This document shows positions 22,846 through 51,069 of a DNA stretch of 64,000 nt, piece after piece. A program made the translations under genes and the position numbers. How positions within the stretch are numbered: the stretch's first letter is position 1; each line of letters starts with the position of its first letter. This stretch comes from Vandiemenella viatica (Eukaryota; Arthropoda; Insecta; Orthoptera; Morabidae): the NCBI GenBank assembly GCA_031002005.1, contig JARYHS010013630.1:29351504-29415503 (forward strand), given 5' to 3'. Below the pieces are notes generated by a model. The model did not search any database. It had not been told where the DNA came from and saw only the letters and a program-made list of their open reading frames with translations.

Positions 22846-22849
22846 AGTT

Positions 22850-23804
22850 TGTGACATTACAGTAGTCATGCAATCCTTGATTAATCAATATCGGTGTAGA
22901 TATCAATAATCGATATACAGCGAGAGGCTACTCTCTGAGCTAGACTTGCAGTCAGTCAAGTGTTAACCCACTTAGCAGCAACCCAGGAAAAATGGTATGA
23001 CTGTGTGTAAGTGAAGTGGAGTATTCTTGAAGACATTTCGGGCATATGGACACGTAAAATGCGCTTCCGCGACGGGAAACTAATGTTGGCGTGACGTCGC
23101 TATTCGTGAGATACGCCAAACGGTGCAAAAATACGCTGATACTTGCTTACAGAACTGTGAAAGTGCTATTGAGTATTGGTAACTGTTGTACAGACATTCA
23201 GCATATTTCTTATTGGAAGGAGAGTATTTTGTGATTCAACTTTTCACTCCAAAGAACTTGTAATCTTCTGAAAAGTAATAATTAATTCCAGTTGGTGGTC
23301 AGTGTACGGATGTAAGATACAAACTGTTGGAATAAAAAAGTTGTTCTACTTGTACTTCCAAGGTGTGAGTGTATCTTCATTATGGTTGATTCCTATGAAC
23401 TTGTGAATATTCAATATTCCTAGTACGTTTGACTAATCACTGGTGGCGACCAAGACAAAATAATAAACTACAAAGTATCAATGCCTCCATGAGGTAGGTC
23501 AAATCATAGTGTTGTGGTAACATCACTATCTGTAACTGAACATTAACTCCAGTAAAACGCGAATAAGTAAAACTTGTAGTTTTACATTGCAAGCCGTGAC
23601 TGGACTAACTGTTATTAATTAACCAAGTGTAAAACCTTGTAGTTTTACATCGCTCAACGTGACAGGACTCGGCCCAGGTGAAGCTGTTAATTACGGACAG
23701 TGATTAATAAACAACATATAAAAGAAAACCTTGTGGTTTTACATTGCAAGCAGTGACAGGACTAACTGTTATTAATTAACCGAGTAAAACCTTGTAGTTT
23801 TACA
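22850..23804 (+). repeat. LTR 1 of array (955 bp)
   Basis: It runs TG...CA. There is an arthropod-type initiator TCAGTC at 22952, with GATATA about 40 bases upstream, and a polyadenylation signal AATAAA at 23331. The last 240 bases hold four hairpins with GTAAAAC/GTTTTAC-type stems at 23567-23585, 23629-23648, 23725-23740 and 23784-23803. The left flank is the target copy AGTT. Confidence 0.88.
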
Positions 23805-24039
23805 TGGCGCACGTGAAATGGACTTGGGTTTTGAAGTTGTTTAAAGTGAAGTAATAAAAACCAGCGGAAACGCAAACTGTGAGTGAAAAGTGAAATGGAA
23901 AATAACAATACGATACGTGTAACGCAAGTATTGGATCAAATACATTGTTAAGTGCAGTGGTTGCGGAACTGAGTGCAAAGAAGTGACGAGAGAAAGAGAC
24001 AGCATTGCTAACCAAAGGCTAACATTATAGAAATAAAGT

Positions 24040-24300
24040 CAACGACCAGGTACTACATCTCGCTGCGCAGTAACACATCGAGGAAGGAGACGGAGAGGAG
24101 CTACGTCACGCGGAGCAGTAACACATCGAGGAAGGAGATGAAGAGGAACTACTTCACGCTGCGCAGTACTACATCGCGGAAGGAGACGGGAAGAAACTAC
24201 TCCACAGCAACCGACTACCAATCGCAGAGGAAGGCTGCAGCAGGGCTGTCTACTGCAGATAAGAAGACATCGAACAGGCAATCTAAAATAAGTTCTAAAA
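24040..24300 (+). pseudogene. Basic tandem-repeat frame (ORF-A), unit 1
   Basis: Three tandem repeats of about 48 bp encode 16-residue units of the type NTSRKETERSYVTRS, then a tail YQSQRKAAAGLSTADKKTS that runs into the poly-T tract. It is strongly basic and Ser/Thr-rich, as expected of a nucleic-acid-binding Gag-like piece, but it is not recognised. The frame lacks a proper start: the nearest ATG frame (23895) stops after 19 codons. A single-base change near 24138 separates the first repeat. Confidence 0.4.
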
Positions 24301-24302
24301 TA

Positions 24303-24347
<45 letters not shown>

Positions 24348-24991
24348 TTGAGAAAGTGAATGAGAAGTAATTTTTTTAGCGCCGGGTAATATTCACACTG
24401 AGCTTCATAAGTACCATAAGAATAATATACCATCAGACTGAATCGTAATTCGCAGATAAATAAATATTTAACAGGAAGAAAAATTGTAAATCTTAATATA
24501 AATGCATGCTTACTAGTTTTCAGTCTAAAATTTTCAGTTTTGTTTTTGATCGGGAAAAAATTTTTTTTTTGCACAGTAACATTGGTAATTGAAATCATTT
24601 TTGCGTTTGGAATTTTTTTTTGCATGCAATCTTACAGTTTACCAGCCTGTGAACTACCAGGGTGGGGTAAAGTGAATGAAGCTTACACCCACTGTAGCAA
24701 TCATCAGTAATTAATTCCTACATTCCTATGTGAGTGATGTGTTATTTTCAGCTATTCCTGATTGGAGCATAGTAGCAGCAAAGATTACTGCTGATCCACG
24801 ATGTATGCTTCCTAGCAAGTTTGTTTAAGTTTGAAAAATTACTATCATCGGCGTTGCACTAACTCCACCAGTGACTGGTTGATTTGTTGGTCTATCGGCG
24901 TTTTGATGGTGAAGCTTATGTTGGTTTTGCTTTTGATATCATGGAACAAGCTGTGTGTCTTTAGTTACTGGTTTCTTTGTCTTGATTTTGA

Positions 24992-25059
24992 GTGTGGGCA
25001 ACTTAGTGGCTTTAACCCCCACCCCACCTTTCGTGTTCGAATCCTGCATAGTTTTTTTC
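24992..25059 (+). repeat. tRNA-like polymerase III box segment (unit 1; repeated in all units)
   Basis: GTGGGCAACTTAGTGGC resembles an A box and GTGTTCGAATCCTGC is a good B box about 35 bases later. It is followed by a T7 run that could end polymerase III transcription. It lies directly upstream of the coiled-coil frame in all six internal regions and is probably a captured tRNA or SINE fragment. Confidence 0.45.
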
Positions 25060-25072
25060 TTAGTCTGTGAAA

Positions 25073-25967
25073 ATGGATACTGAGGAAACTTTTGTGGAAG
25101 GAACAAAAGAGCTGATTGAGGAGATGTCTGTTAAAAAAATGCTTATGCAGTTGATGAACCAGTTAAAGACAGAAAATGCTGAGAATATCAAGGCTTTAAA
25201 GACAGAAATGGCTGAGAGAAGTTACTCCATGGGAGAAAGACTCATCCACTCCATGGAAGAAGTGGATGAGTCAGGCATTTTAAGAGCTAAAAATGCTGAA
25301 AACTTCAAGACCCTAAGAAATGAATATGGAAAAATAAATCGTGCCATTGATGAACACTTCAAGGATCTAAGAGCTGGAATTGCAGACAGCTGCAATTGTC
25401 AAAGAGATTCAAATCAGACAAGAGAGTGTTAGAGTTCTGTGGGCCAGCAGAATCTTTAAGACAGAGATCACACAGCCGATAAGGTCAGAGCAAGTGGAGA
25501 CGAACTCCCATTCGCAGAATGTAATAAAAGTCATGGAAGGGGTAGGCACAGAAGAAGAAGAGGAGGAAGGGAGCGAAACAGAATACTGCAGTGGAGAAGA
25601 AGACAATGTCGTTGGAGAATTTGAGCAGATTTGCAGAGCAGTAGATTACCCTATCATGGATGCACTCAAACTGGAAGATGGACAGTTGATCAGAATTGGA
25701 GTGGAAGGGGTGATCTCCACGACAAACGGTCAACTGACAGTGGAAAACACCAACGTCATAAGGGAGGATGAACCAAATTTCGACTGGGTGATAGATGAAC
25801 AAATGAAGAACAGTGGGAGTGAAGAAAAGAAAGATGATGTCAAGTTGAAGAAAGGAAGAAGCGGGGCGCAAGTGAAGAATGTCTGCCCTGGAAGGGGTGG
25901 AGAAGCAAGCACGATTGAAGATGATCCGGATGGAAAAAGAAAAGAAGACAAGAAGGGTATTGGTTGA
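25073..25967 (+). pseudogene. Acidic coiled-coil protein of the array (ORF-B), unit 1
   Basis: ATG 25073 follows a splice-acceptor-like TTTTTTTCTTAG (ending 25063), so the protein may be made from a spliced RNA. It starts MDTEETFVEGTKELIEEM and continues with heptad-rich helix (LMNQLKTENAENIKALKTE), then an acidic stretch (GTEEEEEEGSETEYCSGEED) and a charged tail ending DKKGIG. Unit 1 has an extra G in GAGTCAGGCATT that keeps the first part open further than in other units, but a 17-bp deletion near 25387 shifts the frame. The resulting pieces are 25073-25432 and 25380-25967. No known domain was recognised, and it contains no zinc knuckle or enzyme motif. Confidence 0.6.
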
Positions 25968-26721
25968 AACTATTCAAGCAAGACATTCTCAGTGTGGGGG
26001 AAGAGAAGGGAGTGCCTAGGGGTGAGGAGCATCCTGAACACCCCGTGAAACCCTCCACATCCATTTTGTAAATACTCCAGTTTGTAAATATTTTCTCCTT
26101 TTTTGTTTATATGTATTTAGATGTTAGGTTGTTTTAAAATTAACCAACCCATTTCAATACTTCAGATGTATCGGGAGGTCAATGACCTTTATCTCCAATG
26201 GGCATTTCTTTTCTTTATGAACCATGAGATTGATGTAAGAAGCTAGGAGGTGATATTAACCCGGTTGCTAGTGGCCTAGTAGTGCACTCTCTAGGTCCTT
26301 ACAGTTGGCCGTTTACAGTGACGAAGTGAGTGGTCTCTGGTCCGACGTGTGAATTTCATTTTTTGTTGCAATGTGTGTGTTAGAGGGTAAGTTTTGAGAA
26401 TGAACAGCTGACCAGATAACAGCAATGAAGGACACGGTGCTATGGGATCAAAAACTAGTTAACTGTTTTGTATGTACAAGTGGTTGTTTATGTCATATGA
26501 ATTTTGTGTTCGCATATTTGATGTCAATGTAAACATGAAAATGTAACTTTTTTTTGGAGGAGTACCGACCACCAACAACGTTGTGCAGGAGGTTAATTGT
26601 GTGTGTGATTTTGTACCTATGAGCAGTAAGTGAGCTACCCAGTCACGCCTCGACTGTTTGTAGTTTCTATTTAAATTGTTTACTGTTTGTTTATTATTTT
26701 AAACATAGACCTGGAAGGGGT

Positions 26722-27674
26722 TGTGACATTACAGTAGTCGTGCAATCCTTGATTAATCAATATCGGTGTAGATATCAATAATCGATATACAGCGAGAGGC
26801 TACTCTCTGAGCTAGACTTGCAGTCAGTCAAGTGTTAACCCACTTAGCAGCAACCCAGGTAAAAATGGTATGACTGTGTGTAAGTGAAGTGGAGTATTCT
26901 TGAAGACATTTCGGGCATATGGACACGTAAATGCGCTTCCGCGACGGGAAACTAATGTTGGCGTGACGTCGCTATTCGTGAGATACGCCAAACGGTGCAA
27001 AAATACGCTGATACTTGCTTACAGAACTGTGAAAGTGCTATTGAGTATTGGTAACTGTTGTACAGACATTCAGCATATTTCTTATTGGAAGGAGAGTATT
27101 TTGTGATTCAACTTTTCACTCCAAAGAACTTGTAATCTTCTGAAAAGTAATAATTAATTCCAGTTGGTGGTCAGTGTACGGATGTAAGATACAAACTGTT
27201 GGAATAAAAAAGTTGTTCTACTTGTACTTCCAAGGTGTGAGTGTATCTTCATTATGGTTGATTCCTATGAACTTGTGAATATTCAATATTCCTAGTACGT
27301 TTGACTAATCACTGGTGGCGACCAAGACAAAATAATAAACTACAAAGTATCAATGCCTCCATGAGGTAGGTCAAATCATAGTGTTGTGGTAACATCACTA
27401 TCTGTAACTGAACATTAACTCCAGTAAAACGCGAATAAGTAAAACCTTGTAGTTTTACATTGCAAGCCGTGACTGGACTAACTGTTATTAATTAACCGTG
27501 TAAAACCTTGTAGTTTTACATCGCTCAACGTGACAGGACTCGGCGCAGGTGAAGCTGTTAATTACGGACAGTGATTAATAAACAACATATAAAAGAAAAC
27601 CTTGTGGTTTTACATTGCAAGCAGTGACAGGACTAACTGTTATTAATTAACCGAGTAAACCTTGTAGTTTTACA
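26722..27674 (+). repeat. LTR 2 of array (953 bp)
   Basis: Near-identical to LTR 1. Differences include a G at GTCGTGCAATCC and the loss of one A in the fourth hairpin stem (GAGTAAACC). It is flanked left by the purine tract GGAAGGGG and right by the primer-binding site. Confidence 0.88.
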
Positions 27675-30529
27675 TGGCGCACGTGAAATGGACTTGGGTT
27701 TTGAAGTTGTTTAAAGTGAAGTAATAAAAACCAGCGGAAACGCAAACTGTGAGTGAAAAGTGAAACTGGAAAATAACAATACGATACGTGTAACGCAAGT
27801 ATTGGATCAAAATACATTGTTAAGTGCAGTGGTTGCGGAACTGAGTGCAAAGAAGTGACGAGAGAAAGAGACAGCATTGCTAACCAAAGGCTAACATTAT
27901 AGAAATAAAGTCAACGACCAGGTACTACATCTCGCTGCGCAGTAACACATCGAGGAAGGAGACGGAGAGGAGCTACGTCACGCGGAGCAGTAACACATCG
28001 AGGAAGGAGACGAAGAGGAACTACTTCACGCTGCGCAGTACTACATCGCGGAAGGAGACGGGAAGAAACTACTCCACAGCAACCGACTACCAATCGCAGA
28101 GGAAGGCTGCAGCAGGGCTGTCTACTGCAGATAAGAAGACATCGAACAGGCAATTCTAAAATAAGTTTTTTTTTTTTTTTTTTTTTTTGTTGAGAAAGTG
28201 ATTGAGAAGTAATTTTTTTTTTTAGCTCCGGGTAATATTCACACTGAGCCTTCATAAGTACCATAAGAATAATATACCATCAGACTGAATCGTAATTCGC
28301 AGATAATAAATATTTAACAGGAAGAAAAATTGTAAATCTTAATATAATGCATGCTTACTAGTTTTTCAGTCTAAAATTTTCAGTTTTGTTTTTGATCGGG
28401 AAAAAATTTTTTTTTGCATGCAATCTTACAGTTTACCAGCCTGTGAACTACCAGGGTGGGGTAAAGTGAATGAAGCTTACACCCACTGTAGCAATCATCA
28501 GTAATTAATTCCTACATTCCTATGTGAGTGATGTGTTATTTTCAGCTATTCCTGATTGGAGCAGAGTAGCAGCAAAGATTACTGCTGATCCATGATGTAT
28601 GCTTTCCTAGCAAGTTTGTTTAAGTTTGAAAAATTACTATCATCGGCGTTGCACTAACTCCACCAGTGACTGGTTGATTTGTTGGTCTATCGGCGTTTTG
28701 ATGGTGAAGCTTATGTTGTTTTGCTTTTGATATCATGGAACAAGCTGTGTGTCTTTAGTTACTGGTTTCTTTGTCTTGATTTTGAGTGTGGGCAACTTAG
28801 TGGCTTTAAACCCCCACCCCACCTTTCGTGTTCGAATCCTGCATAGTTTTTTTCTTAGTCTGTGAAAATGGATACTGAGGAAACTTTTGTGGAAGGAACA
28901 AAAGAGCTGATTGAGGAGATGTCTGTTAAAAAAATGCTTATGCAGTTGATGAACCAGTTAAAGACAGAAAATGCTGAGAATATCAAGGCTTTAAAGACAG
29001 ACATGGCTGAGAGAAGTTACTCCATGGGAGAAAGACTCATCCACTCCATGGAAGAAAGTGGATGAGTCAGCATTTTAAGAGCTAAAAATGCTGAAAACTT
29101 CAAGACCCTAAGAAATGAATATGGAAAAATAAATCGTGCCATTGATGAACACTTCAAGGATCTAAGAGCTGGAATTGCAGACAGCTGCAATTGTCAAAGA
29201 GATTCAAATCAGACAAGAGAATGTTAGAGTTCTGTGGGCCAGCAGAATCTTTAAGACAGAGATCACACAGCCGATAAGGTCAGAGCAAGTGAGACGAACT
29301 CCCATTCGCAGAATGTAATAAAAGTCATGGAAGGGGTAGGCACAGAAGAAGAAGAGGAGGAAGGGAGCGAAACAGAATACTGCAGTGGAGAAGAAGACAA
29401 TGTCGTTGGAGAATTTGAGCAGATTTGCAGAGCAGTAGATTACCCTATCATGGATGCACTCAAACTGGAAGATGGACAGTTGATCAGAATTGGAGTGGAA
29501 GGGGTGATCTCCACGACAAACGGTCAACTGACAGTGGAAAACACCAACGTCATAAGGGAGGATGAACCAAATTTCGACTGGGTGATAGATGAACAAATGA
29601 AGAACAGTGGGAGTGAAGAAAAGAAAGATGATGTCAAGTTGAAGAAAGGAAGAAGCGGGGCGCAAGTGAAGAATGTCTGCCCTGGAAGGGGTGGAGAAGC
29701 AAGCCACGATTGAAGATGATCCGGGATGGAAAAAAGAAAAGAAGACAAGAAGGGTATTGTTGAAAACTATTCACGCAAAGACATTCTCAGTGTGGGGGAA
29801 GAGAAGGGAGTGGCCTAGGGGTGAGGAGCATCCTGAACACCCCGTGAAACCCTCCACATCCATTTTGTAAATACTCCAGTTTGTAAATATTTTCTCCTTT
29901 TTTGTTTATATGTATTTTAGATGTTAGGTTGTTTTAAAATTAACCAACCCATTTCAATACTTCAGATGTATCGGGAGGTCAATGACCTTTATCTCCATGG
30001 GCATTTCTTTTCTTTATGAACCATGAGATTGATGTAAGAAGCCTAGGAGGTGATATTAACCCGGTTTGCTAGTGGCCTAGAGTGCACTCTCTAGGTCCTT
30101 ACAGTTGGGCCGTTTACAGTGACGAAGTGAGTGGTCTCTGGTCCGACGTGTGAATTTCATTTTTGTTGCAATGTGTGTGTTAGAGGGTAAGTTTTGAGAA
30201 TGAACAGCTGACCAGATAACAGCAATGAAGGACACGGTACTATGGGATCAGAAAACTAGTTAACTGTTTTGTATGTACAAGTGGTTGTTTATGTCATATG
30301 AATTTTGTGTTCGCATATTTGATGTCAATGTAAACATGAAAAATGTAACTTTTTTGGAGGAGTACCGACCACAACAACGTTGTGCAGGAGGTTAATTGTG
30401 TGTGTGATTTTGTACCTATGAGCAGTAAGTGAGCTACCCAGTCAGTCCCCTGCCCTCGACTGTTTGTAGGTTTTCTATTTAATTGTTTAGTTTGTTTATT
30501 ATTTTAAAACATATAGACCTGGAAGGGGT
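27675..30529 (+). mobile_element. Internal region 2 of array
   Basis: Same order of parts as region 1. The T tract is about 23 long (28166-28188). About 52 bases are missing between two T-rich GCA repeats near 28410, a deletion shared only with region 3. This unit and the next carry many one-base indels, as expected of pseudogene decay or consensus error. Confidence 0.85.
28868..29713 (+). pseudogene. ORF-B coiled-coil protein, unit 2
   Basis: Same start and acceptor as unit 1. An extra A near 29054 ends the first part at MEESG (29065). The second part is open from 29327 through the acidic run to GGEASHD, where an extra base changes the tail. It carries the common 17-bp deletion, and a missing G near 29291 (GTGAGACG) shifts the frame again. 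It is broken in at least three places. Confidence 0.55.
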
Positions 30530-31480
30530 TGTGACATTACAGTAGTCATGCAATCCTTGATTAATCAATATCGGTGTAGATATCAATAATCGATATACAG
30601 CGAGAGGCTACTCTCTGAGCTAGACTTGCAGTCAGTCAAGTGTTAACCCACTTAGCAGCAACCCAGGAAAAATGGTATGACTGTGTGTAAGTGAAGTGGA
30701 GTATTCTTGAAGACATTTCGGGCATATGGACACGTAAAATGCGCTTCCGCGACGGGAAACTAATGTTGGCGTGACGTCGCTATTCGTGAGATACGCCAAA
30801 CGGTGCAAAATACGCTGATACTTGCTTACAGAACTGTGAAAGTGCTATTGAGTATTGGTAACTGTTGTACAGACATTCAGCATATTTCTTATTGGAAGGA
30901 GAGTATTTTGTGATTCAACTTTTCACTCCAAAGAACTTGTAATCTTCTGAAAAGTAATAATTAATTCCAGTTGGTGGTCAGTGTACGGATGTAGATACAA
31001 ACTGTTGGAATAAAAAAGTTGTTCTACTTGTACTTCCAAGGTGTGAGTGTATCTTCATTATGGTTGATTCCTATAAACTTGTGAATATTCAATATTCCTA
31101 GTACGTTTGACTAATCACTGGTGGGACCAAGACAAAATAATAAACTACAAAGTATCAATGCCTCCATGAGGTAGGTCAAATCATAGTGTTGTTGTTAACA
31201 TCACTATCTGTAACTGAACATTAACTCCAGTAAACGCGAATAAGTAAAACTTGTAGTTTTACATGCAAGCCGTGACTGGGACTAACTGTTATTAATTAAC
31301 AAGTGTAAAACCTTGTAGTTTTACATCGCTCAACGGGACAGGACTCGGGCCAGGTGAAGCTGTTAATTACGGACAGTGATTAATAAACAACATATAAAAG
31401 AAAACCTTGTGGTTTTACATTGCAAGCAGTGACAGGACTAACTGTTATTAATTAACCGAGTAAAACCTTGTAGTTTTACA
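30530..31480 (+). repeat. LTR 3 of array (951 bp)
   Basis: The same LTR with several one-base losses and gains (GGTGGGACC instead of GGTGGCGACC, GTTGTTGTTAAC instead of GTTGTGGTAAC). All four hairpin modules are present. Confidence 0.87.
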
Positions 31481-34325
31481 TGGCGCACGTGAAATTGGAC
31501 TTGGGTTTTGAAGTTGTTTAAAGTGAAGTAATAAAAACCAGCGGAAACGCAAACTGTGAGTGAAAAGTGAAATGGAAAATAACAATACGATACGTGTAAC
31601 GCAAGTATTGGATCAAATACATTGTTAAGTGCAGTGGTTGCGGAACTGGTGCAAAGAAGTGACGAGAGAAGAGACAGCATTGCTAACCAAAGGCTAACAT
31701 TATAGAAATAAAGTCAACGACCAGGTACTACATCTCGCTGCGCAGTAACACATCGAGGAAGGAGACGGAGAGGAGCTACGTCACGCGGAGCAGTAACACA
31801 TCGAGGAAGGAGACGAAGAGGAACTACGTCACGCTGCGCAGTACTACATCGCGGAAGGAGACGGGAAGAAACTACTCCACAGCAACCGACTACCAATCGC
31901 AGAGGAAGGCTGCAGCAGGGCTGTCTACTGCAGATAAGAAGACCATCGAACAGGCAATCTAAAATAAGTTTTTTTTTTTTTTTTTTTTTTTTGTTGAGAA
32001 AGTGATTGAGAAGTAATTTTTTTTTTAGCTCCGGGTAATATTCACACTGAGCTTCATAAGTACCATAAGAATAATATACCATCAGACTGAATCGTAATTC
32101 GCAGATAAATAAATATTTAACAGGAAGAAAAATTGTAAATCTTAATATAAATGCTTACTAGTTTTCAGTCTAAAATTTTCAGTTTTGTTTTTGATCGGGA
32201 AAAAATTTTTTTTTGCATGCAATCTTACAGTTTACCAGCCTGTGAACTACCAGGGTGGGGTAAAGTGAATGAAGCTTACACCCACTGTAGCAATCATCAG
32301 TAATTAATTCCTACATTCCTATGTGAGTGATGTGTTATTTTCAGCTATTCCTGATTGGAGCAGAGTAGCAGCAAAGATTACTGCTGATCCACGATGTATG
32401 CTTCCTAGCAAGTTTGTTTAAGTTTGAAAAATTACTATCATCGGCGTTGCACTAACTCCACCAGTGACTGGTTGATTTGTTGGTCTATCGGCGTTTTGAT
32501 GGTGAAGCTTATGTTGTTTTGCTTTGATATCATGGAACAAGCTGTGTGTCTTTAGTTACTGGTTTCTTTGTCTTGATTTGAGTGTGGGCAACTTAGTGGC
32601 TTTAAACCCCCACCCCACCTTTCGTGTTCGAATCCTGCATAGTTTTTTTTTTTTCTTAGTCTGTGAAAATGGATACTGAGGAAACTTTTGTGGAAGGAAC
32701 AAAAGAGCTGATTGAGGAGATGTCTGTTAAAAAAATGCTTATGCAGTTGATGAACCAGTTAAAGACAGAAAATGCTGAGAATATCAAGGCTTTAAAGACA
32801 GAAATGGCTGAGAGAAGTTACTCCATGGGAGAAAGACTCATCCACTCCATGGAAGAAGTGGATGAGTCAGCATTTTAAGAGCTAAAAATGCTGAAAACTT
32901 CAAGACCCTTAAGAAATGAATATGGAAAAATAAATCGTGCCATTGATGAACACTTCAAGGATCTAAGAGCTGGAATTGCAGACAGCTGCAATTGTCAAAG
33001 AGATTCAAATCAGACAAGAGAATGTTAGAGTTCTGTGGGCCAGCAGAATCTTTAAGACAGAGATCACACAGCCGATAAGGTCAGAGCAAGTGGAGACGAA
33101 CTCCCATTCGCAGAATGTAATAAAAGTCATGGAAGGGGTAGGCACAGAAGAAGAAGAGGAGGAAGGGACGCGAAACAGAATACTGCAGTGGAGAAGAAGA
33201 CAATGTCGTTGGAGAATTTGAGCAGATTTGCAGAGCAGTAGATTACCCTATCATGGATGCACTCAAACTGGAAGATGGACAGTTGATCAGAATTGGAGTG
33301 GAAGGGGTGATCTCCACGACAAACGGTCAACTGACAGTGGAAAACACCAACGTCATAAGGGAGGATGAACCAAATTTCGACTGGGTGATAGATGAACAAA
33401 TGAAGAACAGTGGGAGTGAAGAAAAGAAAGATGATGTCAAGTTGAAGAAAGGAAGAAGCGGGGCGCAAGTGAAGAATGTCTGCCCTGGAAGGGGTGGAGA
33501 AGCAAGCACGATTGAAGATGATCCGGATGGAAAAAGAAAAGAAGACAAGAAGGGTATTGGTTGAAACTATTCAAGCAAGACTGATTCTCAGTGTGGGGGA
33601 AGAGAAGGGAGTGCCTAGGGGTGAGGAGCATCCTGAACACCCCGTGAAACCCTCCACATCCATTTTTGTAAATACTCCAGTTTGTAAATATTTTCTCCTT
33701 TTTTGTTTATATGTATTTTAGATGTTAGGTTGTTTTAAAATTAACCAACCCATTTCAATACTTCAGATGTATCGGGAGGTCAATGACCTTTATCTCCAAT
33801 GGGCATTTCTTTTCTTTATGAACCATGAGATTGATGTAAGAAGCTAGGAGGTGATATTAACCCGGTTGCTAGTGGCCTAGTAGTGCACTCTCTAGGTCCT
33901 TACAGTTGGCCGTTTACAGTGACGAAGTGAGTGGTCTCTGGTCCGACGTGTGAATTTCATTTTTTGTTGCAATGTGTGTGTTAGAGGGTAAGTTTTGAGA
34001 ATGAACAGCTGACCAGATAACAGCAATGAAGGACACGGTGCTATGGGATCAAAAACTAGTTAACTGTTTTGTATGTACAAGTGGTTGTTTATGTCATATG
34101 AATTTTGTGTTCGCATATTTGATGTCAATGTAAACATGAAAAAATGTAACTTTTTTTTGGAGGAGTACCGACCACCAACAACGTTGTGCAGGAGGTTAAT
34201 TGTGTGTGTGATTTTGTACCTATGAGCAGTAAGTGAGCTACCCAGTCACGCCTCGACTGTTTGTAGGTTTCTATTTAAATTGTTTACTGTTTGTTTATTA
34301 TTTTAAACATAGACCTGGAAGGGGT
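31481..34325 (+). mobile_element. Internal region 3 of array
   Basis: The T tract is about 24 long (31969-31992). It shares the 52-bp deletion with region 2 (near 32205) and the GGGACGCGAAAC variant (33167) with region 5. Confidence 0.85.
32669..33564 (+). pseudogene. ORF-B coiled-coil protein, unit 3
   Basis: The first part runs from ATG 32669 to a stop after VDESAF (32878). Middle pieces follow in other frames. The tail is open at 33253-33564 (MDALKLEDGQLIRIGVEGVI ... DKKGIG). The extra base in GGGACGCGAAAC splits the acidic run from the tail, and the 17-bp deletion is present. Confidence 0.55.
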
Positions 34326-35282
34326 TGTGACATTACAGTAGTCATGCAATCCTTGATTAATCAATATCGGTGTAGATATCAATAATCGATATACAGCGAG
34401 AGGCTACTCTCTGAGCTAGACTTGCAGTCAGTCAAGTGTTAACCCACTTAGCAGCAACCCAGGAAAAATGGTATGACTGTGTGTAAGTGAAGTGGAGTAT
34501 TCTTGAAGACATTTCGGGCATATGGACACGTAAAATGCGCTTCCGCGACGGGAAACTAATGTTGGCGTGACGTCGCTATTCGTGAGATACGCCAAACGGT
34601 GCAAAAATACGCTGATACTTGCTTACAGAACTGTGAAAGTGCTATTGAGTATTGGTAACTGTTGTACAGACATTCAGCATATTTCTTATTGGAAGGAGAG
34701 TATTTTGTGATTCAACTTTTCACTCCAAAGAACTTGTAATCTTCTGAAAAGTAATAATTAATTCCAGTTGGTGGTCAGTGTACAGATGTAAGATACAAAC
34801 TGTTGGAATAAAAAAGTTGTTCTACTTGTACTTCCAAGGTGTGAGTGTATCTTCATTATGGTTGATTCCTATGAACTTGTGAATATTCAATATTCCTAGT
34901 ACGTTTGACTAATCACTGGTGGCGACCAAGACAAAATAATAAACTACAAAGTATCAATGCCTCCATGAGGTAGGTCAAATCATAGTGTTGTGGTAACATC
35001 ACTATCTGTAACTGAACATTAACTCCAGTAAAACGCGAATAAGTAAAGACCTTGTAGTTTTACATTGCAAGCCGTGACTGGACTAACTGTTATTAATTAA
35101 CCAAGTGTAAAACCTTGTAGTTTTACATCGCTCAACGTGACAGGACTCGGCCCAGGTGAAGCTGTTAATTACGGACAGTGATTAATAAACAACATATAAA
35201 AGAAAACCTTGTGGTTTTACATTGCAAGCAGTGACAGGACTAACTGTTATTAATTAACCGAGTAAAACCTTGTAGTTTTACA
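34326..35282 (+). repeat. LTR 4 of array (957 bp)
   Basis: Intact TG...CA LTR with all hairpin modules. The first hairpin is altered to GTAAAGACCTTGTAG. Confidence 0.88.
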
Positions 35283-35450: not shown

Positions 35451-35798
35451 GTGCAAAGAAGTGACGAGAGAAAGGCTAACATTATAGAAATAAAGTCAAC
35501 GACCAGGTACTACATCTCGCTGCGCAGTAACACATCGAGGAAGGAGACGGAGAGGAGCTACGTCACGCGGAGCAGTAACACATCGAGGAAGGAGACGAAG
35601 AGGAACTACTTCACGCTGCGCAGTACTACATCGCGGAAGGAGACGGGAAGAAACTACTCCACAGCAACCGACTACCAATCGCAGAGGAAGGCTGCAGCAG
35701 GGCTGTCTACTGCAGATAAGAAGACATCGAACAGGCAATCTAAAATAAGTTTTTTTTTTTTTTTTTTTTTTTTTGTTGAGAAAGTGATTGAGAAGTAA
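35451..35798 (+). pseudogene. Basic tandem-repeat frame (ORF-A), unit 4
   Basis: Because of the 20-bp deletion the frame is open from GTG 35451, through all three 16-residue basic repeats (TSRKET core) and into the T tract, which encodes polyphenylalanine. It is the longest uninterrupted version together with unit 6. The polyphenylalanine run argues that the T tract is an insertion into what was once coding sequence. Confidence 0.4.
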
Positions 35799-36499: not shown

Positions 36500-37393
36500 A
36501 TGGATACTGAGGAAACTTTTGTGGAAGGAACAAAAGAGCTGATTGAGGAGATGTCTGTTAAAAAAATGCTTATGCAGTTGATGAACCAGTTAAAGACAGA
36601 AAATGCTGAGAATATCAAGGCTTTAAAGACAGAAATGGCTGAGAGAAGTTACTCCATGGGAGAAAGACTCATCCACTCCATGGAAGAAGTGGATGAGTCA
36701 GCATTTTAAGAGCTAAAAATGCTGAAAACTTCAAGACCCTAAGAAATGAATATGGAAAAATAAATCGTGCCATTGATGAACACTTCAAGGATCTAAGAGC
36801 TGGAATTGCAGACAGCTGCAATTGTCAAAGAGATTCAAATCAGACAAGAGAATGTTAGAGTTCTGTGGGCCAGCAGAATCTTTAAGACAGAGATCACACA
36901 GCCGATAAGGTCAGAGCAAGTGGAGACGAACTCCCATTCGCAGAATGTAATAAAGTCCATGGAAGGGGTAGGCACAGAAGAAGAAGAGGAGGAAGGGAGC
37001 GAAACAGAATACTGCAGTGGAGAAGAAGACAATGTCGTTGGAGAATTTGAGCAGATTTGCAGAGCAGTAGATTACCCTATCATGGATGCACTCAAACTGG
37101 AAGATGGACAGTTGATCAGAATTGGAGTGGAAGGGGTGATCTCCACGACAAACGGTCAACTGACAGTGGAAAACACCAACGTCATAAGGGAGGATGAACC
37201 AAATTTCGACTGGGTGATAGATGAACAAATGAAGAACAGTGGGAGTGAAGAAAAGAAAGATGATGTCAAGTTGAAGAAAGGAAGAAGCGGGGCGCAAGTG
37301 AAGAATGTCTGCCCTGGAAGGGGTGGAGAAGCAAGCACGATTGAAGATGATCCGGATGGAAAAAGAAAAGAAGACAAGAAGGGTATTGGTTGA
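36500..37393 (+). pseudogene. ORF-B coiled-coil protein, unit 4
   Basis: The first part is 36500-36709 (stop after VDESAF). The second, 36806-37393, is open for 195 codons from MQTAAIVKEIQIRQENVRVL, through the acidic run, to DKKGIG. It carries the 17-bp deletion. Among units 1-5 this copy and unit 1 keep the longest distal frame. Confidence 0.58.
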
Positions 37394-38148
37394 AACTATT
37401 CAAGCAAGACTGATTCTCAGTGTGGGGGAAGAGAAGGGAGTGCCTAGGGGTGAGGAGCATCCTGAACACCCCGTGAAACCCTCCACATCCATTTTGTAAA
37501 TATTTTCTTTTGTTATTTTCTTTTTTTGTTTATATGTATTTTAGATGTTAGGTTGTTTTAAAATTAACCAACCCATTTCAATACTTCAGATGTATCGGGA
37601 GGTCAATGACCTTTATCTCCAATGGGCATTTCTTTTCTTTATGAACCATGAGATTGATGTAAGAAGCTAGGAGGTGATATTAACCCGGTTGCTAGTGGCC
37701 TAGTAGTGAGTGCACTCTCTAGGTCCTTACAGTTGGCCGTTTACAGTGACGAAGTGAGTGGTCTCTGGTCCGACGTGTGAATTTCATTTTTGTTGCAATG
37801 TGTGTGTTAGAGGGTAAGTTTTGAGAATGAACAGCTGACCAGATAACAGCAATGAAGGACACGGTGCTATGGGATCAGAAAACTAGTTAACTGTTTTGTA
37901 TGTACAAGTGGTTGTTTATGTCATATGAATTTGTGTTCGCATATTTGATGTCAATGTAAACATGAAAAATGTAACTTTTTTGGAGGAGTACCGACCACCA
38001 ACAACGTTGTGCAGGAGGTTAATTGTGTGTGTGATTTTGTACCTATGAGCAGTAAGTGAGCTACCCAGTCACGCCTCGACTGTTTGTAGGTTTCTATTTA
38101 AATTGTTTACTGTTTGTTTATTATTTTAAACATAGACCTGGAAGGGGT

Positions 38149-39105
38149 TGTGACATTACAGTAGTCATGCAATCCTTGATTAATCAATATCGGTGTAGAT
38201 ATCAATAATCGATATACAGCGAGAGGCTACTCTCTGAGCTAGACTTGCAGTCAGTCAAGTGTTAACCCACTTAGCAGCAACCCAGGAAAAATGGTATGAC
38301 TGTGTGTAAGTGAAGTGGAGTATTCTTGAAGACATTTCGGGCATATGGACACGTAAAATGCGCTTCCGCGACGGGAAACTAATGTTGGCGTGACGTCGCT
38401 ATTCGTGAGATACGCCAAACGGTGCAAAAATACGCTGATACTTGCTTACAGAACTGTGAAAGTGCTATTGAGTATTGGTAACTGTTGTACAGACATTCAG
38501 CATATTTCTTATTGGAAGGAGAGTATTTTGTGATTCAACTTTTCACTCCTAAAGAACTTGTAATCTTCTGAAAAGTAATAATTAATTCCAGTTGGTGGTC
38601 AGTGTACGGATGTAAGATACAAACTGTTGGAATAAAAAAAGTTGTTCTACTTGTACTTCCAAGGTGTGAGTGTATCTTCATTATGGTTGATTCCTATGAA
38701 CTTGTGAATATTCAATATTCCTAGTACGTTTGACTAATCACTGGTGGCGACCAAGACAAAATAATAAACTACAAAGTATCAATGCCTCCATGAGGTAGGT
38801 CAAATCATAGTGTTGTGGTAACATCACTATCTGTAACTGAACATTAACTCCAGTAAAACGCGAATAAGTAAAACTTGTAGTTTTACATTGCAAGCCGTGA
38901 CTGGACTAACTGTTATTAATTAACCAAGTGTAAAACCTTGTAGTTTTACATCGCTCAACGTGACAGGACTCGGCGCAGGTGAAGCTGTTAATTACGGACA
39001 GTGATTAATAAACAACATATAAAAGAAAACCTTGTGGTTTTACATTGCAAGCAGTGACAGGACTAACTGTTATTAATTAACCGAGTAAAACCTTGTAGTT
39101 TTACA
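38149..39105 (+). repeat. LTR 5 of array (957 bp)
   Basis: Intact LTR. CACTCCTAAAGAAC is intermediate between the CACTCCAAAGAAC of LTRs 1-4 and the CACTCCTAAGAAC of LTRs 6-7. Confidence 0.88.
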
Positions 39106-42000
39106 TGGCGCACGTGAAATGGACTTGGGTTTTGAAGTTGTTTAAAGTGAAGTAATAAAAACCAGCGGAAACGCAAACTGTGAGTGAAAAGTGAAATGGA
39201 AAATAACAATACGATACGTGTAACGCAAGTATTGGATCAAATACATTGTTAAGTGCAGTGGTTGCGGAACTGAGTGCAAAGAAGTGACGAGAGAAAGAGA
39301 CAGCATTGCTAACCAAAGGCTAACATTATAGAAATAAAGTCAACGACCAGGTACTACATCTCGCTGCGCAGTAACACATCGAGGAAGGAGACGGAGAGGA
39401 GCTACGTCACGCGGAGCAGTAACACATCGAGGAAGGAGACGAAGAGGAACTACTTCACGCTGCGCAGTACTACATCGCGGAAGGAGACGGGAAGAAACTA
39501 CTCCACAGCAACCGACTACCAATCGCAGAGGAAGGCTGCAGCAGGGCTGTCTACTGCAGATAAGAAGACATCGAACAGGCAATCTAAAATAAGTTTTTTT
39601 TTTTTTTTTTTTTTGTTGAGAAAGTGATTGAGAAGTAATTTTTTTTTTAGCTCCGGGTAATATTCACACTGAGCTTCATAAGTACCATAAGAATAATATA
39701 CCATCAGACTGAATCGTAATTCGCAGATAAATAAATATTTAACAGGAAGAAAAATTGTAAATCTTAATATAAATGCATGCTTACTAGTTTTCAGTCTAAA
39801 ATTTTCAGTTATGTTTTTGATCGGGAAAAAATTTTTTTTTGCACAGTAACATTGGTAAATGAAATCATTTTTGCGTTTGGAATTTTTTTTTGCATGCAAT
39901 CTTACAGTTTACCAGCCTGTGAACTACCAGGGTGGGGTAAAGTGAATGAAGCTTACACCCACTGTAGCAATCATCAGTAATTAATTCCTACATTCCTATG
40001 TGAGTGATGTGTTATTTTCAGCTATTCCTGATTGGAGCAGAGTAGCAGCAAAGATTACTGCTGATCCACGATGTATGCTTCCTAGCAAGTTTGTTTAAGT
40101 TTGAAAAATTACTATCATCGGCGTTGCACTAACTCCACCAGTGACTGGTTGATTTGTTGGTCTATCGGCGTTTTGATGGTGAAGCTTATGTTGTTTTGCT
40201 TTTGATATCATGGAACAAGCTGTGTGTCTTTAGTTACTGGTTTCTTTGTCTTGATTTTGAGTGTGGGCAACTTAGTGGCTTTAACCCCCACCCCACCTTT
40301 CGTGTTCGAATCCTGCATAGTTTTTTTTCTTAGTCTGTGAAAATGGATACTGAGGAAACTTTTGTGGAAGGAACAAAAGAGCTGATTGAGGAGATGTCTG
40401 TTAAAAAAATGCTTATGCAGTTGATGAACCAGTTAAAGACAGAAAATGCTGAGAATATCAAGGCTTTAAAGACAGAAATGGCTGAGAGAAGTTACTCCAT
40501 GGGAGAAAGACTCATCCACTCCATGGAAGAAGTGGATGAGTCAGCATTTTAAGAGCTAAAAATGCTGAAAACTTCAAGACCCTAAGAAATGAATATGGAA
40601 AAATAAATCGTGCCATTGATGAACACTTCAAGGATCTAAGAGCTGGAATTGCAGACAGCTGCAATTGTCAAAGAGATTCAAATCAGACAAGAGAATGTTA
40701 GAGTTCTGTGGGCCAGCAGAATCTTTAAGACAGAGATCACACAGCCGATAAGGTCAGAGCAAGTGGAGACGAACTCCCATTCGCAGAATGTAATAAAAGT
40801 CATGGAAGGGGTAGGCACAGAAGAAGAAGAGGAGGAAGGGACGCGAAACAGAATACTGCAGTGGAGAAGAAGACAATGTCGTTGGAGAATTTGAGCAGAT
40901 TTGCAGAGCAGTAGATTACCCTATCATGGATGCACTCAAACTGGAAGATGGACAGTTGATCAGAATTGGAGTGGAAGGGGTGATCTCCACGACAAACGGT
41001 CAACTGACAGTGGAAAACACCAACGTCATAAGGGAGGATGAACCAAATTTCGACTGGGTGATAGATGAACAAATGAAGAACAGTGGGAGTGAAGAAAAGA
41101 AAGATGATGTCAAGTTGAAGAAAGGAAGAAGCGGGGCGCAAGTGAAGAATGTCTGCCCTGGAAGGGGTGGAGAAGCAAGCACGATTGAAGATGATCCGGA
41201 TGGAAAAAGAAAAGAAGACAAGAAGGGTATTGGTTGAAACTATTCAAGCAAGACTGATTCTCAGTGTGGGGGAAGAGAAGGGAGTGCCTAGGGGTGAGGA
41301 GCATCCTGAACACCCCGTGAAACCCTCCACATCCATTTTTGTAAATACTCCAGTTTGTAAATATTTTCTCCTTTTTTGTTTATATGTATTTTAGATGTTA
41401 GGTTGTTTTAAAATTAACCAACCCATTTCAATACTTCAGATGTATCGGGAGGTCAATGACCTTTATCTCCAATGGGCATTTCTTTTCTTTATGAACCATG
41501 AGATTGATGTAAGAAGCTAGGAGGTGATATTAACCCGGTTGCTAGTGGCCTAGTAGTGCACTCTCTAGGTCCTTACAGTTGGCCGTTTACAGTGACGAAG
41601 TGAGTGGTCTCTGGTCCGACGTGTGAATTTCATTTTTTGTTGCAATGTGTGTGTTAGAGGGTAAGTTTTGAGAATGAACAGCTGACCAGATAACAGCAAT
41701 GAAGGACACGGTGCTATGGGATCAAAAACTAGTTAACTGTTTTGTATGTACAAGTGGTTGTTTATGTCATATGAATTTTGTGTTCGCATATTTGATGTCA
41801 ATGTAAACATGAAAAAATGTAATTCTTTTTTTTGGAGGAGTACCGACCACCAACAACGTTGTGCAGGAGGTTAATTGTGTGTGTGATTTTGTACCTATGA
41901 GCAGTAAGTGAGCTACCCAGTCACGCCTCGACTGTTTGTAGGTTTCTATTTAAATTGTTTACTGTTTGTTTATTATTTTAAACATAGACCTGGAAGGGGT
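39106..42000 (+). mobile_element. Internal region 5 of array
   Basis: The T tract is about 21 long (39594-39614). It retains the 20-bp segment missing from regions 4 and 6 and carries GGGACGCGAAAC (40840) like region 3. Confidence 0.85.
40343..41237 (+). pseudogene. ORF-B coiled-coil protein, unit 5
   Basis: Same break pattern as unit 3: a first part 40343-40552 ending VDESAF, a frame change at GGGACGCG, and an open tail 40926-41237. It carries the 17-bp deletion. Its closeness to unit 3 rather than to its neighbours is part of the alternating pattern discussed in the findings. Confidence 0.55.
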
Positions 42001-42956
42001 TGTGACATTACAGTAGTCATGCAATCCTTGATTAATCAATATCGGTGTAGATATCAATAATCGATATACAGCGAGAGGCTACTCTCTGAGCTAGACTTGC
42101 AGTCAGTCAAGTGTTAACCCACTTAGCAGCAACCCAGGAAAAATGGTATGACTGTGTGTAAGTGAAGTGGAGTATTCTTGAAGACATTTCGGGCATATGG
42201 ACACGTAAAATGCGCTTCCGCGACGGGAAACTAATGTTGGCGTGACGTCGCTATTCGTGAGATACGCCAAACGGTGCAAAAATACGCTGATACTTGCTTA
42301 CAGAACTGTGAAAGTGCTATTGAGTATTGGTAACTGTTGTACAGACATTCAGCATATTTCTTATTGGAAGGAGAGTATTTTGTGATTCAACTTTTCACTC
42401 CTAAGAACTTGTAATCTTCGGAAAAGTAATAATTAATTCCAGTTGGTGGTCAGTGTACGGATGTAAGATAAAAACTGTTGGAATAAAAAAGTTGTTCTAC
42501 TTGTACTTCCGATGTGTGAGTGTATCTTCATTATGGTTGATTCCTATGAACTTGTGAATATTCAATATTCCTAGTACGTTTGACTAATCGCTGGTGGCGA
42601 CCAAGACAAAATAATAAACTACAAAGTATCAATGCCTCCATGAGGTAGGTCAAATCATAGTGTTGTGGTAACATCACTATCTGTAACTGAACATTAACTC
42701 CAGTAAAACGCGAATAAGTAAAACTTGTAGTTTTACATTGCAAGCCGTGACTGGACTAACTGTTATTAATTAACCAAGTGTAAAACCTTGTAGTTTTACA
42801 TCGCTCAACGTGAAAGGACTCGGCGCAGGTAGAAGCTGTTAATTACGGACAGTGATTAATAAACAACATATAAAAGAAAACCTTGTGGTTTTACATTGCA
42901 AGCAGTGACAGGACTAACTGTTATTAATTAACCGAGTAAAACCTTGTAGTTTTACA
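42001..42956 (+). repeat. LTR 6 of array (956 bp)
   Basis: It differs from LTRs 1-5 at CTTCCGATGTG (others CTTCCAAGGTG), ATCTTCGGAAAAG (others TTCTGAAAAG) and AATCGCTGG (others AATCACTGG). These variants are shared with LTR 7. Confidence 0.88.
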
Positions 42957-43124
42957 TGGCGCACGTGAAATGGACTTGGGTTTTGAAGTTGTTTAAAGTG
43001 AAGTAATAAAAACCAGCGGAAACGCAAACTGTGAGTGAAAAGTGAAATGGAAAATAACAATACGATACGTGTAACGCAAGTATTGGATCAAATACATTGT
43101 TAAGTGCAGTGGTTGCGGAACTGA

Positions 43125-43421
43125 GTGCAAAGAAGTGACGAGAGAAAGGCTAACATTATAGAAATAAAGTCAACGACCAGGTACTACATCTCGCTGCGCA
43201 GTAACACATCGAGGAAGGAGACGGAGAGGAGCTACGTCACGCGGAGCAGTAACACATCGAGGAAGGAGACGAAGAGGAACTACTTCACGCTGCGCAGTAC
43301 TACATCGCGGAAGGAGACGGGAAGAAACTACTCCACAGCAACCGACTACCAATCGCAGAGGAAGGCTGCAGCAGGGCTGTCTACTGCAGATAAGAAGACA
43401 TCGAACAGGCAATCTAAAATA

Positions 43422-43461
<40 letters not shown>

Positions 43462-43556
43462 TTGAGAAAGTGAATGAGAAGCTAATTTTTTTAGCGCCGG
43501 GTAATATTCACACTGAGCTTCATAAGTACCATAAGAATAATATACCATCAGACTGA
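43125..43556 (+). pseudogene. Basic tandem-repeat frame (ORF-A), unit 6
   Basis: The same frame as unit 4, open through three TSRKET repeats and the long T tract and then a further 30 codons. Like unit 4 it owes its continuity to the 20-bp deletion. Function unknown. Confidence 0.38.
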
Positions 43557-44186
43557 AATCGTAATTCGCAGATAAATAAATATTTAACAGGAAGAAAAAT
43601 TGTAAATCTTAATATAAATGCATGCTTACTAGTTTTCAGTCTAAAATTTTCAGTTTTGTTTTTGATCGGGAAAAAATTTTTTTTTGCACAGTAACATTGG
43701 TAAATGAAATCATTTTTGCATTTGGAATTTTTTTTTGCATGCAATCTTACAGTTTACCAGCCTGTGAACTACCAGGGTGGGGTAAAGTGAATGAAGCTTA
43801 CACCCACTGTAGCAATCATCAGTAATTAATTCCTACATTCCTATGTGAGTGATGTGTTATTTTCAGCTATTCCTGATTGGAGCAGAGTAGCAGCAAAGAT
43901 TACTGCTGATCCACGATGTATGCTTCCTAGCAAGTTTGTTTAAGTTTGAAAAATTACTATCATCGGCGTTGCACTAACTCCACCAGTGACTGGTTGATTT
44001 GTTGGTCTATCGGCGTTTTGATGGTGAAGCTTATGTTGTTTTGCTTTTGATATCATGGAACAAGCTGTGTGTCTTTAGTTACTGGTTTCTTTGTCTTGAT
44101 TTTGAGTGTGGGCAACTTAGTGGCTTTAACCCCCACCCCACCTTTCGTGTTCGAATCCTGCATAGTTTTTTTCTTAGTCTGTGAAA

Positions 44187-45097
44187 ATGGATACTGAGGA
44201 AACTTTTGTGGAAGGAACAAAAGAGCTGATTGAGGAGATGTCTGTTAAAAAAATGCTTATGCAGTTGATGAACCAGTTAAAGACAGAAAATGCTGAGAAT
44301 ATCAAGGCTTTAAAGACAGAAATGGCTGAGAGAAGTTACTCCATGGGAGAAAGACTCATCCACTCCATGGAAGAAGTGGATGAGTCAGCATTTTAAGAGC
44401 TAAAAATGCTGAAAACTTCAAGACCCTAAGAAATGAATATGGAAAAATAAATCGTGCCATTGATGAACACTTCAAGGATCTAAGAGCTGGAATTGCAGAC
44501 AGCTACAATGCACTGGGAGCTGCAATTGTCAAAGAGATTCAAATCAGACAAGAGAATGTTAGAGTTCTGTGGGCCAGCAGAATCTTTAAGACAGAGATCA
44601 CACAGCCGATAAGGTCAGAGCAAGTGGAGACGAACTCCCATTCGCAGAATGTAATAAAAGTCATGGAAGGGGTAGGCACAGAAGAAGAAGAGGAGGAAGG
44701 GAGCGAAACAGAATACTGCAGTGGAGAAGAAGACAATGTCGTTGGAGAATTTGAGCAGATTTGCAGAGCAGTAGATTACCCTATCATGGATGCACTCAAA
44801 CTGGAAGATGGACAGTTGATCAGAATTGGAGTGGAAGGGGTGATCTCCACGACAAACGGTCAACTGACAGTGGAAAACACCAACGTCATAAGGGAGGATG
44901 AACCAAATTTCGACTGGGTGATAGATGAACAAATGAAGAACAGTGGGAGTGAAGAAAAGAAAGATGATGTCAAGTTGAAGAAAGGAAGAAGCGGGGCACA
45001 AGTGAAGAATGTCTGCCCTGGAAGGGGTGGAGAAGCAAGCACGATTGAAGATGATCCGGATGGAAAAAGAAAAGAAGACAAGAAGGGTATTGGTTGA
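44187..45097 (+). pseudogene. ORF-B coiled-coil protein, unit 6 (keeps the 17-bp segment)
   Basis: The first part is 44187-44396 (stop after VDESAF). The distal part is in frame from about 44500, through the acidic run, to DKKGIG at 45097. Here GACAGCTACAATGCACTGGG precedes AGCTGCAATTGTC, whereas units 1-5 have GACAGCTGCAATTGTC. The longer form keeps the helix in register and is probably ancestral. The stop after VDESAF remains the only break apparent here. Confidence 0.58.
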
Positions 45098-45863
45098 AAC
45101 TATTCAAGCAAGACTGATTCTCAGTGTGGGGGAAGAGAAGGGAGTGCCTAGGGGTGAGGAGCATCCTGAACACCCCGTGAAACCCTCCACATCCATTTTT
45201 GTAAATACTCCAGTTTGTAAATATTTTCTCCTTTTTTTTTTTTTGTTTATATGTATTTTAGATGTTAGGTTGTTTTAAAATTAACCAACCCATTTCAATA
45301 CTTCAGATGTATCGGGAGGTCAATGACCTTTATCTCCAATGGGCATTTCTTTTCTTTATGAACCATGAGATTGATGTAAGAAGCTAGGAGGTGATATTAA
45401 CCCGGTTGCTAGTGGCCTAGTAGTGCACTCTCTAGGTCCTTACAGTTGGCCGTTTACAGTGACGAAGTGAGTGGTCTCTGGTCCGACGTGTGAATTTCAT
45501 TTTTTGTTGCAATGTGTGTGTTAGAGGGTAAGTTTTGAGAATGAACAGCTGACCAGATAACAGCAATGAAGGACACGGTGCTATGGGATCAAAAACTAGT
45601 TAACTGTTTTGTATGTACAAGTGGTTGTTTATGTCATATGAATTTTGTGTTCGCATATTTGATGTCAATGTAAACATGAAAATGTAACTTTTTTTTGGAG
45701 GAGTACCGACCACCAACAACGTTGTGCAGGAGGTTAATTGTGTGTGTGATTTTGTACCTATGAGCAGTAAGTGAGCTACCCAGTCACACCTCGACTGTTT
45801 GTAGGTTTCTATTTAAATTGTTTACTGTTTGTTTATTATTTTAAACATAGACCTGGAAGGGGT

Positions 45864-48141
45864 TGTGACATTACAGTAGTCATGCAATCCTTGATTAATC
45901 AATATCGGTGTAGATATCAATAATCGATATACAGCGAGAGGCTACTCTCTGAGCTAGACTTGCAGTCAGTCAAGTGTTAACCCACTTAGCAGCAACCCAG
46001 GAAAAATGGTATGACTGTGTGTAAGTGAAGTGGAGTATTCTTGAACAGGGTGGCCACAAGGCAATAATTTAAAAATTCCCTGATATTTCCAGGTTTTCCA
46101 GAAAAATTTGCCATATTTTTCCCTGATTTAGAAAGTTTATTTGCATGATTAAGATATTTAAAGTTTTAATTAGATTTTGATTGTAAATAATTAAATCTGT
46201 ATAAAACAAAAAATCAAAAAAATAGAAAAAGAAACATGTTTAACAATGTTTATTTGAAAATTTTATAACTAATTTAGTAATCTTATGAAGCATAATTAAA
46301 TATGAGTAGCACAAAAATATAATGACTTATATGAACTAGAACAATTTAGTAATATTTCAATATTTGGTAGATAAAATAATTGAAGATTTGTAAATTGTTC
46401 TTTAGTAACGTGACTCAGTCAAAAGCTTAGCTTTTTTATGCCTTTCATCATTTGCTACACTTTTCTCTCCAAATCTTCTGGTTCAGTTATTGTAGCTTCT
46501 TTTGTTCCATCTTCAATTTCTTCTGTTGCCAAGTTAAAACTTGCGTAAGTTTCCGTGAGTCTACGCAAGATAGCATGAACACGAGTTTGTAGAAACCATG
46601 CAATCGTGTAGGCTCAACTTGCATGGTTGCTTGGGTGTGCCGCTCGCTTTGGCAGCGGTTTATTTGGTGCCAGTCAAAGGCACGAGCACGATGTTTATAC
46701 TATCGCATCAATTCAGCATTTGAAAGAGCTCTGAATGACACAAAACTTTATAAATCCTACCTATTTAGACCTCTGGTTAGTATTTACATGATCTTACGTA
46801 TTATTTTATTCCTGCTTTAATTCGCCTTATATCATTAATACGAAAAAGTTATAAAGCCGTATAATTATCGCTATTCACATTTTTGCTGGCATTGGTATCT
46901 TGAATCTAGGCTTTTGTTTTGATATTATAAGTTCAATTTTCTCAAAAGAAGTTCAAAGCCAGTTCTTCGAAGATTCTCCACAAATTCAATACTTTAGGAT
47001 CATCTGTTTCATACTTTGCTTGAAATTGTAAAACTGTTTAGTGAAACATAAAACATCTTTACAAACTTACTACTCTACGATTGCTGTTTTATTCAGTAAA
47101 AAATATAACTTCTGAGTTTACATGTAGTACTATAATTCTGATTTAGATGTCATCCACCTTTTTTTAAAGTATAATTTCGAATGCTGAGTTCCAGAGAGAG
47201 TTCATGTCAGCGCTCGCGTACGAACATCTCGTTATCCTATCTCGATGAGGCGCAAGACGAGATGCAAGTTGCTAGTGTAAATGTGGCATTTGTTAGCTAT
47301 TCTATGTCAAAAATATATAAGCTGAATTATTTAATGCAAAAGTTCAATATTAAAATAAATTATCAAAAAATTTCCAAATTTTGGGTTGTTGCAATTAAAA
47401 TTACCTGATAATTTTTGAAATTACTTGGATTCCCTGATATTTCCATGATATTTCAAGGTTGCTTTAAATTCCCTGATAATTCCATATTTTTCAGGTTTTC
47501 CAGGTCTGTGGCCACCCTGTTGAAGACATTTCGGGCATATGGACACGTGAAATGCGCTTCCGCGACGGGAAACTAATGTTGGTGTGACATCGCTATTCGT
47601 GAGATACGCCAAACGGTGCAAAAATACGCTGATACTTGCTTACAGAACTGTGAAAGTGCTATTGAGTATTGGTAACTGTTGTACAGACATTCAGCATATT
47701 TCTTATTGGAAGGAGAGTATTTTGTGATTCAACTTTTCACTCCTAAGAACTTGTAATCTTCGGAAAAGTAATAATTAATTCCAGTTGGTGGTCAGCGTAC
47801 GGATGTAAGATACAAACTGTTGGAATAAAAAAGTTGTTCTACTTGTACTTCCGATGTGTGAGTGTATCTTCATTATGGTTGATTCCTATGAACTTGTGAA
47901 TATTCAATATTCCTAGTACGTTTGACTAATCGCTGGTGGCGACCAAGACAAAATAATAAACTACGAAGTATCAATGCCTCCATGAGGTAGGTCAAATCAT
48001 AGTGTTGTGGTAACATCACTATCTGTAACTGAACATTAACTCCAGTAAAACGCGAATAAGTAAAGACTTGTAGTTTTACATTGCAAGCTGTGACTGGACT
48101 AACTGTTATTAATTAACCGAGTAAAACCTTGTAGTTTTACA
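45864..48141 (+). repeat. LTR 7 of array, internally deleted and split by a transposon
   Basis: It is formed by 45864-46045 plus 47525-48141, about 799 bp without the inserted element. It lacks about 158 bases between two internal copies of GGACTAACTGTTATTAATTA, so hairpin modules 2 and 3 are missing. It ends TTTTACA directly against the target copy AGTT, which fixes the LTR 3' end for the whole family. Confidence 0.86.
46046..47519. mobile_element. 1474-bp terminal-inverted-repeat element inserted in LTR 7
   Basis: It starts CAGGGTGGCCAC and ends GTGGCCACCCTG (perfect 12-bp terminal inverted repeat), flanked by TTGAA at 46041-46045 and 47520-47524. The intact LTRs show a single TTGAA, proving a 5-bp target duplication. 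Subterminal AATTCCCTGATATTTCC-like motifs are repeated near both ends. No transposase frame is present, so it is non-autonomous. The 5-bp duplication rules out hAT (8 bp), mariner (TA) and piggyBac (TTAA). I do not assign the superfamily. Confidence 0.85.
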
Positions 48142-48145
48142 AGTT

Positions 48146-51060: not shown

Positions 51061-51069
51061 TTAGAACCC

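Follow-up and report, generated by a model that had tools for sequence, protein, structure and literature searches.

How a single target site comes to hold several retrotransposon units that share their LTRs is a question still open in the rice pangenome study of Morales-Diaz et al. 2025 (PMC11899658), which in the part considered here is undecided between exchange and multimer insertion. The 64,000-nucleotide stretch of Vandiemenella viatica DNA analysed here (henceforth the window) poses this question in the form of an array of seven LTRs and six internal regions (bodies). The array is a usable test locus for tandem formation because a related outgroup LTR lies nearby and its variants suffice to order some of its parts. 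We regard it as a known type of event in an unusually readable state of preservation, which leaves the general picture unchanged.

The array covers positions 22846-48145, a span that counts both copies of the AGTT at its edges. In the assembly it is L7I6: LTRs of about 800 bp alternate with bodies of 3.00-3.07 kb and an LTR stands at either end, giving the arrangement LnI(n-1). Along the plus strand the order is LTR1 (22850-23649, 800 bp), body 1 (23650-26721, 3072 bp), LTR2 (26722-27520), body 2 (27521-30529, 3009 bp), LTR3 (30530-31325), body 3 (31326-34325, 3000 bp), LTR4 (34326-35127), body 4 (35128-38148, 3021 bp), LTR5 (38149-38950), body 5 (38951-42000, 3050 bp), LTR6 (42001-42800), body 6 (42801-45863, 3063 bp) and LTR7 (45864-48141). 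Successive LTR starts are 3872, 3808, 3796, 3823, 3852 and 3863 bp apart, so that an LTR plus its body makes a unit of about 3.85 kb and a single LTR-body-LTR element would measure about 4.6 kb. LTR7 is longer than the others because a DNA transposon of 1474 bp (46046-47519, no strand assigned) sits inside it; this insert has inverted ends (CAGGGTGGCCACA) and its own target-site duplication, TTGAA (46041-46045 and 47520-47524), and we presume it to be hAT-like.

One AGTT duplication (22846-22849 and 48142-48145, unstranded) encloses the whole array. At the internal junctions there is no target-site duplication: every body joins the LTR that follows it directly, always by the same GGAAGGGGT, and no flanking DNA lies inside. 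Random pairs of 4-mers drawn 200,000 times from the window outside the array match by chance in 0.55% of draws. When the flanks are joined with one AGTT, a minus-strand frame crosses the site in a stretch of 61 aa; it meets a stop about 14 codons past the site and further stops beyond. The joined peptide matched one protein below E 0.01 among 2719 candidates (E = 3.1e-16), a protein that carries the Pfam RVT_1 domain; the alignment, with 56 of 150 columns identical, crosses the insertion point without a gap. Searches of the same peptide against Pfam and PDB sequences matched nothing. By this alignment the target is a decayed reverse-transcriptase frame that is restored when one AGTT is kept, and which we take, from its motifs, to be of the Penelope-like type. 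A preliminary description of this DNA had reported the alternation of seven LTRs with six bodies, a spacing of 3.80-3.87 kb, the shared AGTT at the outer edges and a Penelope frame continuous across the site when one AGTT is counted. The mapped boundaries (3796-3872 bp from start to start), the 61-aa frame and its gap-free alignment bear out all four.

The units have most hallmarks of LTR retrotransposons. All seven LTRs start with TGTGACATT and end in TTTTACA, forming direct repeats of the type TG...CA, and the AGTT at both edges, with the target frame restored, falls within the 4-6 bp usual for target-site duplications of such elements. The polypurine tract GGAAGGGGT precedes each of LTR2-7, with GGAAGGGG(T) immediately before all six of these internal or right LTRs. 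No tRNA primer-binding site (TGG...) directly follows the 5' LTR: all six bodies start with TCGCTC, and four of them have the primer-site-like GTGACAGGACT 9 bp further on, which we presume to match a tRNA-Arg site. ARAGORN found no tRNA gene within the window for comparison. In six of the seven LTRs TGGCGACC lies about 200 bp inside the LTR. It looks, from the placement of these motifs, as if priming had shifted downstream and the LTR had been extended over a former primer site; a presumed tRNA-Arg binding site appears split over the stretch 23441-23815. This stretch and its counterparts in the other units also have recurrences of an LTR-end motif, (G)TAAAAC(C)TTGT(A/G)GTTTTACA followed by T.GC...GTGA..GGACT-like bases, of which the first unit has one copy within LTR1, one at the LTR end and two in body 1 (23576, 23639, 23733 and 23794). 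Further repeats of the bodies are a 48-bp tandem repeat of 3.2-3.3 copies, present in all six (24048-24205 and equivalents), and a poly-T tract whose length is very uneven from unit to unit (body 1 has 42 T).

For coding capacity we scanned two body ORFs and, in body 6, three partial frames of the plus strand. The longest body frame, of 237 aa from stop to stop, is in body 6 (44384-45097, plus strand); it had no Pfam family above the cutoff, and none of 169 candidates was a homologue at E 0.001. Across the scanned frames there was no reverse transcriptase, integrase, Gag or other gag-pol Pfam domain, only weak sub-cutoff matches to unrelated families, and hence nothing of the protease, RT, RNase H and integrase set of an autonomous Ty3/Gypsy element. 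Because no retroviral domain was seen in these frames and the longest is of 237 aa, the copies are probably non-autonomous, and the earlier statement that all of them are so is probably right.

Comparable arrays are known from several systems, and the preliminary view that they are exceptional was overstated in the light of rice and other plants (PMC11899658), TRIMs (PMC4717578) and a clam (PMC6934838). The rice pangenome yielded 266 tandem LTR-retrotransposons; LTR-body tandems with one target-site duplication are described there as frequent in rice and as occurring in further plants, and cases from kangaroo centromeres, yeast and Drosophila are cited (PMC11899658). As in the rice tandems, LTRs and internal regions alternate here, LTRs are shared and one duplication surrounds the array; unlike the 28 selected Nipponbare tandems, which encode retrotransposon domains, the L7I6 array has no detected domain, and TLI2, one of the two rice loci presented in detail, is L3I2 (PMC11899658). 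Tandem TRIMs of plants, such as the L3I2 and L5I4 forms of maize, likewise have the LnI(n-1) structure, duplications around the array and non-autonomous units; TRIMs are, however, defined as shorter than 1,500 bp (PMC4717578), which excludes an element of about 4.6 kb, and the maize element Wukong, a small plant TRIM, is also unlike the present array (PMC4528315). The bivalve biv-TRIM is a non-autonomous LTR element of animals that forms TDRx_I(x-1) arrays up to TDR58_I57, with up to 58 LTRs in one array at a clam locus and recombination between element LTRs discussed as the origin (PMC6934838); it differs in its short unit, about 0.3 kb if the longest locus, of 16,618 bp, is the TDR58_I57 array. 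Cassandra too forms non-autonomous LTR-body tandem arrays, for which both recombination and template switching have been proposed, but it is a plant element with a 5S RNA domain in its LTR, and its authors report that repeat units do not differ (PMC7215508). The architecture has thus already been described, and the array is a further example, L7I6 with kilobase-sized units. A tandem of non-autonomous units of this size is also a plausible seed of satellite DNA.

The order of events might be recorded in the differences between the LTRs. Over about 800 positions, pairs within LTR1-5 differ by 0-6 substitutions (LTR1 and LTR5 by none), LTR1-5 differ from LTR6 by 6-10, and the most diverged, LTR7, is 13-17 away. 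Five substitution sites (402, 420, 511, 513 and 590) group LTR6 with LTR7 against LTR1-5, and on these sites LTR1-5 and LTR6/7 are two sequence classes. A blastn search with LTR1 over the remainder of the window turned up one diverged relative (13682-14238, plus strand, 76.9% identity over 562 alignment columns), which we used as the outgroup. Its similarity breaks off at position 559 of the LTR, short of the internal TGGCGACC, and the remainder of the window gave no match to body 1. By this outgroup LTR1-5 are derived at positions 420 and 513 of LTR1, where it sides with LTR6, and at 454 LTR7 has the outgroup base and LTR1-6 a common derived one. At 402 the outgroup as aligned has the base of LTR1-5, which would make LTR6/7 derived there, with gap placement uncertain because the outgroup has an adjacent T and LTR5 an extra T; positions 511 and 590 give no polarity because the outgroup has a third base. 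LTR7 alone is derived at 241, 247 and 623. The reading of LTR6 as a cleanly joined left/right chimera from a crossover, which we considered, is weakened by the outgroup bases that LTR6 has at 420 and 513 around a derived base at 454, which leave no clear breakpoint. Private substitutions number 0, 1, 3, 1, 0, 1 and 5 in LTR1-7, which is not a significant departure from equal rates (p = 0.053), and on that value we dropped unequal mutation rates as proof of the order of ages.

The six bodies are near identical (0.17-1.15% substitutions), and each of the 15 pairs differs by at least five substitutions and ten gap events. Bodies 1-5 are without 17 bp that body 6 carries, at a site between short direct repeats AGCTRCAAT. 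Because the frame of body 6 is open with these 17 bp, and is the longest of all, a deletion in bodies 1-5 is the likelier direction of change. LTRs and bodies thus both separate the left five units from the right end at the sites compared, with exceptions in body 6, which has states in common with body 4 (near alignment column 349), body 1 (717 and 742) and bodies 2 and 5 (25); a 21-column gap is common to bodies 4 and 6. Because of these shared states the left five bodies are not a clean clade. A compatibility test of eight hand-chosen characters that are not homopolymer-length variants (body 3 scored as unknown at column 25; informative length variants such as those at columns 1379, 2461 and 2952-2967 omitted) found 9 of 28 pairs incompatible, implying at least three exchange intervals, at columns 25-349, 349-717 and 927-1963. 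Body 5 is closest to body 3, from which it differs by 5 substitutions, and body 4 between them differs by 15 from body 3 and by 14 from body 5; a duplication of two units, or conversion, would give such closeness across an intervening unit. Mosaic characters of this kind are what one expects when the units of a tandem array undergo unequal exchange or conversion, although mosaicism at single characters may come from recurrent mutation.

Taken together, the observations are probably best explained by one insertion followed by unequal exchange between LTRs and conversion between units. A non-autonomous LTR retrotransposon would have inserted once into the Penelope-like element, duplicating AGTT; misaligned sister chromatids or homologues would then have recombined LTR to LTR, giving LTR-body-LTR-body-LTR, and repeated unequal exchange together with gene conversion would have raised the number of bodies to six, the left five units being younger and the right end (LTR6, body 6 and LTR7) older. 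Strict alternation, the single AGTT pair, the lack of flanking DNA inside the array and the target frame that continues across the site support a single insertion followed by exchange, and exchange after insertion is favoured because LTR1-5 and bodies 1-5 have states absent from LTR6/7 and body 6 and because the body characters are mosaic. It is from these that we infer the crossover along with its direction, order and timing. Counting against this account are the polarity at 402, the third bases of the outgroup at 511 and 590, the private derived bases of LTR7, the lack of a clear breakpoint in LTR6, the polarity of the 17-bp change resting on the open frame, the states that body 6 shares with single left bodies and the p of 0.053 for the LTR private counts.

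An unlikely alternative is that a multimer, made of circular or recombined cDNA or of template-switched concatemeric transcripts, integrated in one step with one AGTT duplication. It predicts the single duplication and strict alternation equally well, and both it and exchange are left open for the rice tandems (PMC11899658) and Cassandra (PMC7215508). Yet a multimer of identical units predicts no states shared by subsets, such as LTR1-5 and bodies 1-5 have, nor an LTR7 at 13-17 substitutions from LTR1-5 when these differ among themselves by 0-6, and would additionally require a heterogeneous concatemer or later conversion; conversion after insertion of a concatemer could produce a similar sharing of states. 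Of the three mechanisms offered in the preliminary description, LTR-LTR unequal exchange accordingly suits the subset-shared states and mosaics best, and amplification of circular cDNA or integration of a concatemer suits them less well. That the family itself moves or amplifies as multimers, with arrays recurring at many sites of the genome as forerunners of a 3.85-kb satellite that grows from one end, we consider quite doubtful.

It is improbable, more so again, that the number of units is an artefact of assembly and the true array shorter or longer. Body 2, with 20 substitutions and 34 gap columns private to it, and LTR3, with 3 and 7, have an excess of mostly small, often 1-bp, indels that looks like low consensus quality and resembles poor polishing. 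Against an artefact stand the differences in all 15 body pairs, because of which no two units are simple copies of each other, and the differences that span several bases (17 bp, about 48 columns and 20-21 bp), which are not of read-error types. The differences between body pairs may still leave room for a collapsed array of more than six units. That members of one family inserted here several times, independently or nested, is a reading for which the window offers at least one further relative (13682-14238); it is highly improbable and we rejected it, given the near identity of the six bodies and junctions without foreign DNA or target duplications.

Elsewhere in the window, frames with Exo_endo_phos_2 endonuclease and RVT_1 domains at 7231-8235 and 10368-11012 mark a decayed non-LTR element, and Gypsy-type pol fragments lie at 50301-52000 (RT_RNaseH_2 at 50301-50723 and an rve integrase at 51497-52000). 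A BED zinc finger is encoded in a minus-strand frame at 16792-17292, near a 70-bp tandem repeat (17517-17712), and a 380-bp tandem repeat is present in two copies with 78% matches at 55144-55871.
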